A stretch of DNA of 64,000 bases from Schizochytrium sp. TIO01 (lineage: Eukaryota; Sar; Bigyra; Thraustochytrida; Thraustochytriidae), in NCBI GenBank assembly GCA_004764695.1, contig SMSO01000034.1:2116501-2180500 (forward strand). Reading direction: 5' to 3'. The notes beneath the pieces are model-generated. The model ran no database searches, was not told the origin of the DNA, and worked only from the letters and a program-made list of their open reading frames with translations. Position 1 is the stretch's first letter. Every line of letters begins with the position of its first letter. Position numbers and translations under genes: made by a program. Shown here one piece after another: positions 12,450 to 40,230 of this stretch.

Positions 12450-14227
12450 TTACTGGATCAATGTACTATGATTGTTATAGATCACAAAAGAATACAATTT
12501 TCAATTGTTTCCTCTTTTACATTCTCTGAATGGGCAAAGCTAGAAGCAGATCAAGACAAGCAAATAGCGTGATGAAAGATAAGTCCTAAATCACCTATTT
12601 GCAAAGCTAAGAAAACCAAGTGTACAAAGAAATCAAACGTATGTAGAAAGTAAGAAACTTTTTGAGAGTTGAGAAGAGAGAGAGGTTTTAAAGTCGGTTG
12701 TTTCCACCCAATGTACTTGCGTGACTCCACAGAACGTCGCGACCGCATGCTCAAGTCCGGACGCCAACGGGCTAGTATTGCCTCCGTTGAGGCACCTCGA
12801 GACACGACGCATGTGACGCCTGTGTGAATCTGCAAGACATTGTTGAAAACGAATGTGTTGTTTATTTTTTTCTTCGTTTTTGCTTGTCACGTAATATTTG
12901 ATTTTTTTTTTTTCGCTTTTCGGCCTGTTTGCTGGGCGTCCGGGCACCAGCCCCAGGCACTCCTTCTTTGTTGATAAGATGCTAGCAGGTCCCTCTTATG
13001 AGGAACACGGCAGCAGCATCAGTCCATAACATTATCCTCACATAAGGAGAGCAGACACGGCAGATTACTTAGTTTGGGCCAACCAGAGACACGAGGTCTC
13101 GCCGGACACCAGATAAAAGAAATCTAACCTGTAAGCCTGCCTCCAGGTACACAAAAGGTCAGCAACTCTGCGTTCGCCAAACCCAATTAAAGGGTTGCGA
13201 TATTACACAGAGCATGCAAGTAAAATTCCACAGCGTTGTTCTCCCCCTTCTTCCTCTCCGCAGCCCCAAAGTATCAAGGGGTTGTCGAGTCGAGGAAAAC
13301 CCGGTGGGCACCACGACGATGGCAGGTTGCGCATGGGCGTGCATGACTCATGTAGTACTTTGTCTGTGTTGTGTTTAATCGTAGTTCAAGAGCCCACCCT
13401 GTGATCGCGCTACAAGAGATGAACTCTTACATAGCTGCGTCACAAGGATAATATCTATCCGTCGCGGGAGATTCATCAAGTGCACAACTTGCAAGAAAAG
13501 CCAAAGAGGAACAGGTTTATGTTGAGCCTATGCATCTTCAAATTTTCTTCATGTTATTATTGCACTTGTTGAAACCTGTGAACGGAGTACTTACTGCCAA
13601 TGTCATTGCACGCCCCATGCGGTTTCGCCATGCACTCCGCGGAGCATCCGCCCGAAGTCTTCGTTTGTCCCAGAAGCACACGCACCCCACGCGTATCGAG
13701 AACTCACCCGGCTTCCCTGAAAATCCGTTCATCGCAACAACCAACATTATCAAATTTAGGCTGTTTGCAATGAACACGATAGTTTAGAGAAGCCAGGCAA
13801 GGAATAAGTAAAAAAGTAAAGGAAACGGTCGAGCAAGAGGCCTGGGATCAGTTCACTGGCTCGATGGCCAAATAAAGCAATCTTGCATCTCTGTTGAATT
13901 CTGTTCAAACAATCTCTGCTTCTTAAGGGAGGCACGGGCCGATCCTTTTTGATGAAGCGAATCTTCCTGCCGCCCCTCGCTTTTATACCAGATCGTGCAG
14001 ATGCATACTTTAAGCGCACCTGCATCGATTGATGTGCGATGGACCACAATAAAGAGAATTCTGCAGAGGTCAACGAATGGGTACGAAAAAGCATTGAGAC
14101 ATTACGCGCGCACACATCCATAGATCTCTTGGTCAAGAAGTTGTTCGAATTAGCCAACAGGAGCCAAAAAGGCACAATCGAGACTCACCAGAGCCAGCCA
14201 ACTGAGTTAAGCCACAGGCAATCACGC
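12450..14227. other. Convergent spacer between RCC1-FYVE and PABP genes
   Basis: No firmly supported gene. A 38-codon open frame at 12711-12827 (plus strand) encodes a charged peptide that could be a short ORF or a lost exon. Another frame at 13530-13787 begins with a hydrophobic stretch but has no recognised domain. A T-rich run lies at about 12902-12913. The right end is the 3' flank of PABP. Confidence 0.5.
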
Positions 14228-16570
14228 TTACTGCTGCTCGGCCTTCTCCTTAGCCTGGCGAAGAACACGGAGAGCCTCCTGGATCTTGGCCTCAAGAGAG
14301 TCCGGGGACTCGAGGAGGTGGAGAAGCTCTGGGTTGTCCATCTCGAGGAGCATGCCGGTGATCTTGCTGGCAAGCTGGGGCTGCTCACGCACGATGAGCG
14401 GGTAGAGACGCTCACCGATCATGTTCTTCTGCTCCTTCTCGGAGGCAGAAGCAAGAGCGGCGGCGGTCAAGGGCTCAGGGCCACCCTGCATGGGCATACC
14501 CATGGGCATCTGCTGCTGCATCTGGCCCATGTTCTGCTGGGGAGCACCGGGCTGGTTGCGAACGTTGGCGTTGTACTTGAAGTTGGCGCCCTGCTGCTGG
14601 GGGGCACCGTTCTTGCCGCCACGGCCACCACCACGACCTCCGCGGCCACCACGGCTTCCGCCACGGCCCATCTGCATGTTACCCATGCCTTGCTGCATGC
14701 CCTGGGGCATACCCTGAGGGGGCATGTTCTGGGGCATACCGGGCTGCATACCTTGAGGAGGCATGTTCTGGGGCATTCCGGGGTACTGGGGCATGCCACG
14801 TCCGGGCATTCCGCGGGGAGGGATCATGATGGGCATGTAGCCGGGTCCGTATCCGCGAGCCTGGGGGGGCATAGCACCAGGGGGCATGCCGGGCATACCG
14901 CCGGGGGGGACGGGCATGCCACCAGGGACACCGTAGGGCATCATGGGGTTCGGGTACATCTGCTGCATACCGGGCATTCCGCGGGGCATGCGGCGGTGCT
15001 GGGCCTCGAGCTCTGCGCGGCGGGACTCCTTGCGCTGAGCGAGGGCAACAAAGATGGGCTTGCCCTTGAGCATACGGCCCTGCATCTCGGTGATGGCCTT
15101 GAGGGAGCTCTCGGGGTCGGCGAAGCAGACGAAGCCGAAGCCCTTGGAGGCTCCGAGCTTCTTCTTGGACTTCTTGTCGCCCTCCTCGCCCTCCTCGGTC
15201 TCGTCTTCCTCCTTCTCGGCGGCGTCCTCCTCCTTGGGCTCCTCGTCCTTCTTGTCGGCCTCCTTCTCGGCGGCGTTCTCTTCCTTGGGCTCCTCGTCCT
15301 TCTTGTCGTCGGTCTCCTCGCCGTCCTCCTCCTTGGAGTCCTCAAGGGGCTCACGCATCACGCGCACAGAGGTGATCGAGCCAAACTTGGAGAAAGCATC
15401 GTGGAGGTCCTCGTCGGTCACAGACTCGTGGAGGTTCTTGATGTAGACGTTGACGCCCTGGTACTTGCTCTGGCGGTCCTGCTTGATCTGCTCGAACTTC
15501 TCAGAGAGCTCGCGGTCGCGCTCGGCCTTCTTCTGGGCACGGGTCACGTAGAAGCGGGTGGTACGGCGGATGTTCTTCTTGGCCTCCTCGTCGACCTCCT
15601 CGCCCTCCTTGGGCTCCTCGTCCTTCTTGGCATCGACGTCCTCCTTGGGTGCGTCGGCGGGGAGCTTCTCGGAGTCCTCGTCGGCGGCAACCTCGAGCTC
15701 GTGGAACTTCTCGATGGCGGCGACGGCGTCCTTGTGCTCAGCGTAGTCAACAAAGCCGAATCCCTTGGACTTGCCCTCGGCGTCCTTCATGATGACACAG
15801 CTGGAGACGGGGCCAACCTCGGCGAAGTACTTCTCGAGGCGCATGTCATCCCAGTGCTTGGGCACGTTCTTGACGTAGAGGTTGGTCCACTCGGAGGCAC
15901 CAGGGCGCTCAGAGCGCTTCTGGAAGTGGCCGACGTAGACCTCCTTGCCGGCGATGTGCATGCCGTTGATCTTGCGGATGGCCTCCTGGGCGGCCTTGAG
16001 GGTCTCAAAGTGGACGAAGCCGTAGCCCTGGGAGTTGCCCTCGCGGTCGGTGACAACCTTGCAGGAGAGGATGTTGCCGAAGAGCGAGAAGGTATCGTAG
16101 AGAGCCTTGTTGTCAATGCTGAGGTCAAGGTTCTTGACGAAGACGTTGCCAGCGCCGGTCTTGCGGAGAGACGGGTCGCGCTGAGACCACATGATGCGGC
16201 AGGGGCGATCCTTGATGAGGGTGTAGTTCATGGTGTCGAGGGCACGCTCAGCATCGCCGCTGTTCTGAAAGTTCACGTAGGCGTAGCCGAGCGATCTCCG
16301 GGTCACGGCGTCGCGGCACACGCGGATGGAGGCCACAGTGCCGACGGCGTTGAAGATCTCAAAGAGAAGGGACTCGGTCACGTCCGGGTGAAGGTCGCCA
16401 ACGTAGAGCGAGACGGACTGGAAGCCCTGCTGCTGCTGGTCGGCGGCGCTCTGCTGCTGCTGCTGCTCCTCCTGGGCCTCTGAGCCGGCATCGGCGTTGG
16501 CGCCGGCATCGGCGGAGGCGGCCTGGGCCTCCTGCTGGAGCTTGGCCTCGGTGGCGGAGTCGGAAGACAT
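14228..16570 (-). CDS. PAB1: Polyadenylate-binding protein (PABP) with acidic insertions in RRM3 and RRM4
   Basis: This 780-residue protein binds mRNA poly(A) tails and links them to translation initiation and mRNA decay. The family order is complete: Q/A-rich N-terminus (1-50), RRM1 (about 53-131, SLYVGDL/GYAYVNF), RRM2 (141-218, NVFVKNL/GYGFVHF), RRM3 (229-347, NLYVKNV/GFGFVDY), RRM4 (373-515, NVYIKNL/GFGFVCF), a Met/Pro/Gly-rich linker with MPxGM repeats, an RGG box near 650, and a C-terminal MLLE/PABC domain (about 700-775, containing KITGMLLEMDN). It is longer than usual PABPs (about 630-660 residues) because Lys/Glu/Asp-rich segments interrupt RRM3 before its last strand (~293-338) and RRM4 between strands 2 and 3 (~408-474). 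Both contain KKDEEPKE repeats. Start ATG is at 16570. Very strong codon bias produces a long spurious antisense frame. Confidence 0.97.
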   Translation of the reverse strand: MSSDSATEAKLQQEAQAASADAGANADAGSEAQEEQQQQQSAADQQQQGFQSVSLYVGDLHPDVTESLLFEIFNAVGTVASIRVCRDAVTRRSLGYAYVNFQNSGDAERALDTMNYTLIKDRPCRIMWSQRDPSLRKTGAGNVFVKNLDLSIDNKALYDTFSLFGNILSCKVVTDREGNSQGYGFVHFETLKAAQEAIRKINGMHIAGKEVYVGHFQKRSERPGASEWTNLYVKNVPKHWDDMRLEKYFAEVGPVSSCVIMKDAEGKSKGFGFVDYAEHKDAVAAIEKFHELEVAADEDSEKLPADAPKEDVDAKKDEEPKEGEEVDEEAKKNIRRTTRFYVTRAQKKAERDRELSEKFEQIKQDRQSKYQGVNVYIKNLHESVTDEDLHDAFSKFGSITSVRVMREPLEDSKEEDGEETDDKKDEEPKEENAAEKEADKKDEEPKEEDAAEKEEDETEEGEEGDKKSKKKLGASKGFGFVCFADPESSLKAITEMQGRMLKGKPIFVALAQRKESRRAELEAQHRRMPRGMPGMQQMYPNPMMPYGVPGGMPVPPGGMPGMPPGAMPPQARGYGPGYMPIMIPPRGMPGRGMPQYPGMPQNMPPQGMQPGMPQNMPPQGMPQGMQQGMGNMQMGRGGSRGGRGGRGGGRGGKNGAPQQQGANFKYNANVRNQPGAPQQNMGQMQQQMPMGMPMQGGPEPLTAAALASASEKEQKNMIGERLYPLIVREQPQLASKITGMLLEMDNPELLHLLESPDSLEAKIQEALRVLRQAKEKAEQQ

Positions 16571-38793: not shown

Positions 38794-39588
38794 ACCATAG
38801 TATACACTCGTACCATTTGTTATTTTAAAAGCATTAGAAAATAAATTAGCTTCATGTATGTGCATAAGAAAGAAAATCTTGACATTAGATCCACCAATAC
38901 CCCGGAGTAGTGTGAATATCACACAAAGACTCTTTTTACTTCTTCTCTTGGAGACTAGAATTGCAATATTTCAATGCATAAATCTACACATGTCTCAAAT
39001 CCATTTCCAGTATCTGAAAACGCTTGACCAGACTCATTTTAAGCTCCAGCAAACCTTGATGACCTCTTATTTTACCAGAAGAGGGAAGGCAATTTTGAAA
39101 CTTTGCAGAATTCGATTATATATTTTATCTTCCATCTTTAATCTTAAAGAGAGAAGAGAAAGGGAAAACTAACATTATTGAATATGCTTCGACGGTTAGA
39201 TCATAGCACTAATGTAGCAGTCAAGGGTTCAAACAATCTTCGCATGAGAACGATTGAGATTGAGGCCGTCATTAGAAATGCCAGTGACTTCGGTAATATA
39301 ATATAGATAATACCATGGCAATGGTATTGAGCTATATGAAATATGAAAGTCGAATTGGATAATCTCGGGTCGGGCTTGCCCCTTCAAAAAGCTCCATGTG
39401 TAATTAATAATTCAGGTTCTTACTTCCAAAGTATCTGTCCTAAGCCTTAAATTTAACGTACAAAGACGGAAAACAGATAGCACTCAGTTATATTCATTTC
39501 GGTCAAGATTCTAATAACTGCTGATGAGTCACAGTGTTGTCCTTGACCTGGGCGGACATAGCCGCATAATAGTGGAAGCAGATGTCGA
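38794..39588. other. Convergent spacer; 3' flank of the MsrB gene
   Basis: This stretch should hold the 3' UTR of the minus-strand MsrB gene, where a SECIS element would be expected if its TGA encodes selenocysteine. I could not assign a convincing SECIS (no clear ATGA...AA...GA arrangement on a long helix). A perfect 8-bp stem with four-base loop (39309-39328), extended by a 6-bp outer stem (39301-39306 with 39332-39337), is the strongest hairpin seen but lacks SECIS core bases. Confidence 0.5.
39301..39337. other. Hairpin in the 3' flank of MsrB
   Basis: AATACCAT (39309-39316) pairs perfectly with ATGGTATT (39321-39328) across a 4-base loop. ATATAG (39301-39306) then pairs with CTATAT (39332-39337). 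This makes a two-part stem with a small internal loop. It lies about 250 bases past the MsrB TAA. Its role is unknown. Confidence 0.45.
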
Positions 39589-40230
39589 TTACCCTGTCGC
39601 TGCGGCATCCTGAGCTGAGGCACGGAATACCAGCGACAGGGACAAGACTCAGTGCCTCCACCGTGCATCAGGATGCAAGTCGCCTTTGGCCTTGCCATCT
39701 TCAAATGCATGGCCCATGAAGAGATCGCAGCCCTTGCAATAGAGTTCGAAGACCTCGCATTTGTAGCCATTATACCCTGGTGCCGCTACACGCTCCATGG
39801 CGTCATCAGATGCTTCTTTTCTAAATGAAGGCCAAACGCAGGGTCCTCTAAACTTATCTTTTGACGAGTACATCAACCTCTGACACTGAGCACAGTGATA
39901 AGTTCCCGTTCGCCACAAGTTACGCATTCCTTCGTGAGAGACAACGTCAGAGACCATTTCCATGTCATCCTCGATAGTCTTCGTAAGAGGCCTAGCACTG
40001 ATACGAAAGTAATTGCGTCGATTCTCAAACGTGACCTCTTCATAAAGGGCGAACTTTTTGGACTTTTCTAAAAGGGCCAAACTCAAGTTGCTTGAGTTAG
40101 CCCAAGTTTGTGCCCCGGTTCGGAGCTGATGGCTAAAAACGCCGTTCACAGCAGCCTCTGACGCGGAGTCACGTCGCCGACGCTTGGGGGAAACCTCCCC
40201 GTCGACTATGGTCTCCGCATCGCGACGCAT
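39589..40230 (-). CDS. MSRB: Methionine-R-sulfoxide reductase B, putative selenoprotein (in-frame TGA at Sec position)
   Basis: MsrB reduces methionine-R-sulfoxide in oxidised proteins. From the ATG at 40230 the frame runs 193 codons to a TGA (39649-39651) and, read through it, 19 more to a TAA (39589-39591), giving 213 residues. The MsrB domain starts at about residue 110 with TGTYHCAQCQRLMYSSKDKF, then GPCVWPSF, the second zinc pair CKGC, and MGHAFEDG. The catalytic block normally reads R-x-(C/U)-x-x-S-x-S-L-x-F. Here it is R-H-(TGA)-V-L-S-L-S-L-V-F, so the TGA replaces exactly the catalytic residue and the conserved strand continues after it. This strongly suggests selenocysteine at residue 194, as in animal MSRB1. 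The N-terminal ~110 residues carry a basic KRRRR cluster and no known domain. If TGA were a stop, the enzyme would lack its nucleophile. Confidence 0.8.

Follow-up and report, generated by a model that had tools for sequence, protein, structure and literature searches.

Does the single in-frame TGA of an MsrB (methionine-R-sulfoxide reductase; SelR domain) gene in the thraustochytrid Schizochytrium sp. TIO01 end the protein, or does it encode the catalytic residue as selenocysteine (Sec)? The gene lies on the minus strand, at 39589..40230, of a stretch of 64,000 nucleotides, analysed at its full length and called the window below. Read from 40230 to 39589, the open frame runs for 193 codons to the TGA (39651-39649), continues with VLSLSLVF and 11 further codons and ends at a TAA. 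With the TGA read through it spans 213 residues, without a frameshift or any second internal stop.

The MsrB frame and its catalytic position

Frame reading and homolog alignment place the TGA, codon 194 (39649..39651, minus strand), where homologs have their catalytic Cys or Sec, and the 19 codons that follow it (39592..39648, minus strand; VLSLSLVFRASAQDAAATG) complete the MsrB catalytic motif. The Pfam SelR model scores the read-through protein at 68.8 bits over residues 103-203 (curated cut-off 24.9), against 60.3 bits for the protein ending at the TGA, and in a six-frame search of the genome the SelR alignment crosses the TGA, reaching up to profile position 115. Two CxxC motifs, C113/C116 and C165/C168, make up the zinc site. 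Four MsrB equivalog models of NCBIfam match the frame, each under its own cut-off (TIGR00357: 56 bits, cut-off 113.05). Because the Pfam domain, the zinc sites and the catalytic motif are all present, we read this shortfall as divergence, and by its sequence the protein is a divergent member of the family. Cys131 occupies the position of the Cys in the bacterial-type motif 'SGCGWPSF' and is presumably, from general MsrB enzymology, the resolving Cys. An AlphaFold model of the protein was unusable (mean pLDDT 37.5).

The sequence-only reading had put the TGA exactly at the catalytic position, and the SelR profile, alignments with PDB chains and a paralog in the same genome all bear this out. 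A PDB sequence search returned 17 distinct chains at E <= 0.001; the best stretches of 15 of these extend beyond residue 194, and in four of four alignments, among the matches listed, the UGA stands opposite the catalytic Cys. The genome holds two SelR loci, the one with the TGA and a paralog (L001) with an ordinary Cys. BLASTP aligns the two with 26/96 identities, setting RHUVLSLS opposite RHCVNSVS and thereby the TGA on the paralog's Cys. In the motif R-x-(C/U)-x-x-S-x-S-L-x-F the codon itself is TGA while the neighbours match, as had been claimed for the spacing of R, S, S, L and F; as a sequence argument it is plausible that such spacing, kept across the TGA, would not survive a true stop. 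Two residues past the catalytic position, Asn is found in the Cys enzymes 6sym, 2l1u and 3cez and in the paralog, Phe in MsrB1 (2kv1) and Leu in the present protein. Asn at this place was reportedly described by Kim and Gladyshev in 2005 as marking Cys-type MsrBs.

Searches of viral and genome contigs turned up no relative with this gene, and tblastn against plasmids returned 40 records, all below 60% identity, with distant bacterial MsrBs among the matches listed (15). One bacterial locus from the genome-contig search (L032) was rejected: its similarity is limited to 22 residues around GDLHPDARW and is put down to chance, its forward frames lack the MsrB C-x-x-C...GH pattern and its DNA has no MsrB context. 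A downstream exon supplying a Cys version of the motif was likewise rejected: when the minus strand was scanned for the motif between 39680 and 34001, the TGA frame was the sole match.

Elsewhere in the window, at 14039-16570, long frames of 814 and 780 aa overlap on opposite strands in sequence of 62% GC; the plus-strand frame, which was the one scanned, has no Pfam match.

Sec machinery and UGA use in the genome

If the MsrB is a selenoprotein the organism should have a working Sec system, as the sequence-only reading had supposed, and our search of the genome (64.06 Mb, 37 contigs) agrees, finding genes for tRNA-Sec, eEFSec, SepSecS and SelD/SPS. The tRNA-Sec, with anticodon UCA, scores 70.4 bits (gathering score 47) and is called by ARAGORN as the same gene; its acceptor stem includes two non-standard pairs. 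Two other tRNA-Sec matches, at 45.2 bits, fall below the cut-off and are called as tRNA-Ser on mitochondrion-like contigs. The best E value for SepSecS is 7e-82. The eEFSec locus on contig C6 includes PF21208 and PF21131, the third and fourth domains of the eukaryotic protein, and the SelB model gave 21 matches, none of them up to its cut-off. For PSTK the single match, at C13:2625568-2626332, reaches 60.1 bits (cut-off 290.5) and also matches KTI12. The SelD/SPS gene (G000:C36:4255747-4256697; 277.9 bits) has a pyridine-nucleotide oxidoreductase domain at its N terminus, and we read Cys, not Sec, in its motif. The tRNA-Sec gene, we note, is on the same contig at a distance of about 31 kb.

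Three further genes of Sec families, GPx (L010), SelT (L013) and TrxR (L025; G000:C34:764415-765842, minus strand), have one in-frame TGA each, in every case at the position known for Sec in the family: the GPx active site, the CxxU of SelT and the C-terminal GCUG of TrxR, where it is the penultimate codon. Together with the Sec machinery, these genes support the proposal, already made from the sequence alone, that the MsrB is a likely selenoprotein. All three have a SECIS of one type, in which AUGA and a single base precede a 13-nt strand mismatched at its centre, followed by AAA, the apical portion, another 13-nt strand and NGAN, at about 234 (GPx), 255 (SelT) and 410 nt (TrxR) past the stop. 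For TrxR an alternative GTGA site 189 nt past the stop was ranked higher by a folding scan, while the ATGA site at 410 was better in stem scans. A TrxR-like locus (L026; G000:C33:3560255-3561865, minus strand) ends in GGCAGGRCG, a TGA, an Ile codon and a TAG; this TGA could be either a plain terminator or a further Sec codon.

In this genome UGA seems not to be in general use as a sense codon. Eleven protein-family searches, with stops read through, gave 62 family matches, of which 57 are free of stops; a TGA is present in four, those of MsrB, GPx, SelT and TrxR, and a TAA in one, a GPx fragment. In a count over 11 frames, each of the four candidates has one in-frame TGA and the seven others have none, an absence that is partly by construction because six of these seven were picked with TGA as stop. 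All seven employ TGT/TGC and TGG; in one, the terminator is TGA.

A separate observation concerns the mitochondrion-like contig C37 (41.7 kb), which carries frames that we named nad5-, rps11- and rps13-like. At 32% GC, five of its frames contain TTA only twice against 57 TTG, once at the sixth codon of the nad5-like frame, ahead of the Met that we took as its start, and once as the codon preceding the rps11-like stop. In the Thraustochytrium mitochondrial code (NCBI table 23) UUA is a stop, and the scarcity and positions of TTA fit that code. Two loci, L004 (C15) and L005 (C37), hold one mitochondrion-like stretch as exact reverse complements. PUFA-synthase-like genes were also seen at G000:C4:591651-617209, with matches on both strands; the PfaA match reaches 1157 bits with its neighbours in frame (cut-off 1010). 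From the TTA usage and the PfaA match we take the genome to be that of a thraustochytrid.

SECIS search and the hairpin 3' of the UGA

The main check proposed by the sequence-only reading, a SECIS 3' of the MsrB gene, went against it, in that no element resembling those of GPx, SelT and TrxR was found there. On a SECIS score built on the element type common to the three siblings, the best value in the first kb, 7.3, was equalled or exceeded in 214 of 314 background pieces of 1 kb. The values of GPx, SelT and TrxR were reached by 3, 0 and 0 of the 314, ranks that are flattering because the score was shaped on these three. Further along the MsrB strand the best scores are 7.6 and 8.2, and inside the coding region 8.6; the sibling elements, at 10.0 to 12.2, stand well above all of them. 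An earlier stem score was reached by 24% of 246 background pieces for MsrB, 4.5% for GPx, 0.4% for SelT and 4.1% for TrxR, percentages that are slightly too high because the 1200-base pieces still held the elements of SelT and TrxR. In the folding scan the corresponding counts are 80 of 320 pieces for MsrB, 27 for GPx, 2 for SelT and 8 for TrxR, the last belonging to the site 189 nt past the stop. Every piece that overlaps one of the four 3' regions was meant to be dropped from the backgrounds, which also exclude the two mitochondrial loci; the backgrounds overlap in part, with L002 lying inside the window and the pairs L006/L007 and L017/L020 sharing sequence, and those of 314 and 320 pieces include the bacterial locus L032.

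Other approaches were less informative. A folding scan run free of the AA/CC requirement (MsrB 244, GPx 160, TrxR 96 and SelT 38 of 308) was not relied on because it does not separate the known SECIS either. Shuffle z values are 0.33, -1.11 and -1.10 for the three sibling SECIS, and 0.06 and -1.36 for two MsrB candidates; neither group is clearly stabler than its shuffles, so that plain folding energy is not decisive. Rfam scans of the window and the MsrB neighbourhood gave no SECIS, a result that carries no weight because Rfam also misses the three sibling elements. No SECIS covariance model was built, since MAFFT left the stem arms of the three out of register.

Two weak candidates lie 3' of the gene, both on the minus strand. 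The first (39424..39487) combines CTGA, a 10-bp stem, CC and GGAA and is no better than background. The second (39220..39275) has a poor helix II and contains CTNATGAYGR, a motif common to the GPx, SelT and TrxR SECIS that was derived after the fact. The window holds three copies of this motif against 2.16 expected, and 38 of 100 shuffles have as many; the MsrB 3' region holds one (39275-39266), where about 0.013 are expected per 800 bases of one strand. We regard this copy as a weak SECIS lead. A search for an intron-split form of the second candidate gave no support for one, the best 3' arm scoring 8.6 against a null median of 8.3.

Inspection of the sequence directly past the UGA reveals an RNA hairpin that was absent from the earlier account of this locus. 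It occupies 39592..39641 on the minus strand, with perfect 11-nt arms (39641-39631 and 39602-39592), is set off from the UGA by a 7-nt spacer and has a 3' arm that terminates at the TAA. Its minimum-energy fold has 17 bp and one 2-nt bulge. The energy of -33.3 kcal/mol (72 nt) corresponds to a z of -4.2, with one of 200 dinucleotide shuffles equally good. Equal stability is seen in 12 of 18,268 66-nt windows taken from both strands and in none of the 2,703 that are GC-matched, and 11-nt arms starting 3-14 nt past a TGA occur at two of the 2,454 TGA triplets in the window, that of the MsrB included. By these counts a hairpin of this kind is unlikely to arise by chance; all of the statistics were run after the hairpin had been noticed. 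As a stable stem-loop a few nucleotides 3' of a UGA, it resembles in form and place a Sec redefinition element (SRE). GPx, SelT and TrxR show no comparable post-UGA hairpin with arms of at least 6 nt.

Probable decoding of UGA 194

We face a catalytic-site TGA followed by a hairpin, in a genome with Sec machinery genes and three SECIS-bearing siblings. The best explanation, to which we give a probability of about three in four, is that the MsrB is a genuine selenoprotein that combines an SRE-like hairpin with an unrecognised SECIS. UGA 194 would be read as Sec by the cellular tRNA-Sec and eEFSec, and the hairpin would probably slow or disfavour termination, like the SRE of SELENON. In catalysis Sec194 would attack the substrate, methionine-R-sulfoxide; the intermediate could then be resolved by Cys131 and recycled by thioredoxin. 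The SECIS itself would have escaped our scans by having diverged or by being interrupted by an intron. Against the Sec reading we count the absence of a sibling-type SECIS, the hairpin-less siblings, the failure of the contig searches to yield a relative with the gene, the sub-cutoff PSTK match and the non-standard pairs of the tRNA-Sec.

The main rival, which we think improbable, is SECIS-independent readthrough, in which the hairpin drives readthrough, a near-cognate tRNA inserts another amino acid and the protein, left without its nucleophile, serves another role; this has been proposed for insect SPS1-UGA with its HRE hairpin. A strong hairpin adjoining the UGA and the lack of a recognised SECIS speak for it, and there is precedent in the relevant sections of PMC4561486, where insect SPS1-UGA has a strong hairpin without a SECIS and an SRE without a SECIS still yields Sec-independent readthrough. 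However, the zinc-site Cys residues, Cys131 and the residues of the catalytic motif are kept, which as sequence features would fit an active enzyme, and Sec machinery and SECIS-bearing selenoprotein candidates are present here, unlike in Hymenoptera.

A slightly poorer prospect is that translation really ends at the UGA. The gene would then be an MsrB in decay or cut short, perhaps once a selenoprotein whose SECIS has since been lost; its downstream frame would be a relic, and the Cys paralog would do the reaction. The missing SECIS, the divergence of the domain and the Cys MsrB elsewhere in the genome would all suit such decay. The 213 codons are nevertheless free of frameshifts and extra stops, the motif residues flanking the TGA on either side are intact, and chance would rarely produce such a hairpin. 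We consider a stop in a decaying gene less likely. We give still less credence to Sec decoding in which the hairpin, beside SECIS-dependent genes, acts like a bacterial SECIS and no canonical 3'-UTR SECIS is used.

That a sequencing or assembly error turned a Cys codon (TGC/TGT) into TGA would agree with the single assembly and with Cys as the usual residue at the site, but the error must strike the nucleophile codon exactly while three other genes have a Sec-site TGA, and we consider it very unlikely. Finally, a nuclear code in which UGA means Cys or Trp, as in Euplotes, where it stands for Cys, would account for the TGA opposite the paralog's Cys but is contradicted by the restriction of TGA to four Sec-family genes among the 62 family matches and by the TGT/TGC and TGG of seven other long frames (six of them picked with TGA as stop), leaving it next to no probability.

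The selenoprotein reading has close counterparts. Like animal MSRB1 (SelR/SelX), which has Sec at the catalytic position according to the relevant text of PMC6316033, the protein combines a SelR domain, CxxC zinc sites and x-x-S-x-S-L-x-F after the catalytic position. It is unlike MSRB1 in having Cys131 at the bacterial-type mid-sequence position, a GDLHPDARW insertion before the catalytic motif, and a post-UGA hairpin with no SECIS recognised. Sec-MsrB was apparently animal-specific in the account given in part of a 2007 paper (PMC2375036), and MSRB is named among the selenoprotein families common to algae and animals in a survey of algae (PMC7539508), so that its occurrence outside animals was already known. 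By the description in that survey, the algal MSRB resembles our candidate as a Sec-MsrB of a non-animal eukaryote; the survey's main text contains neither 'thraustochytr' nor 'Labyrinthul'. Sec-MsrB itself is known in animals and algae, and the present MsrB would be a further example. A literature search by title and start of abstract, reaching few subscription journals, found no publication on selenoproteins of Labyrinthulomycetes or thraustochytrids.

The hairpin resembles the SRE of SELENON and SELENOT, an RNA structure just 3' of the Sec UGA, which in SELENON inhibits termination and stimulates Sec insertion (both as stated in parts of PMC8704476). In contrast to these, the MsrB hairpin ends at the terminator and a partner SECIS was not found. 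Insect SPS1-UGA with its HRE shares the Sec-position UGA, the strong hairpin and the lack of a SECIS, as described in sections of PMC4561486; the HRE overlaps the UGA whereas the MsrB hairpin starts after its 7-nt spacer, and most Sec machinery is missing, by the same sections, from Hymenoptera but present in this genome.

Strong hairpins next to a UGA with no recognisable SECIS raise the question of whether they are helpers only or relatives of the bacterial SECIS able to act alone, a relationship proposed in a section of PMC4561486. In sum, the locus contributes a candidate MsrB selenoprotein, and the genome a Sec-decoding system, for a thraustochytrid, and this MsrB would be truncated just before its nucleophile by any gene caller for which TGA is always a stop.
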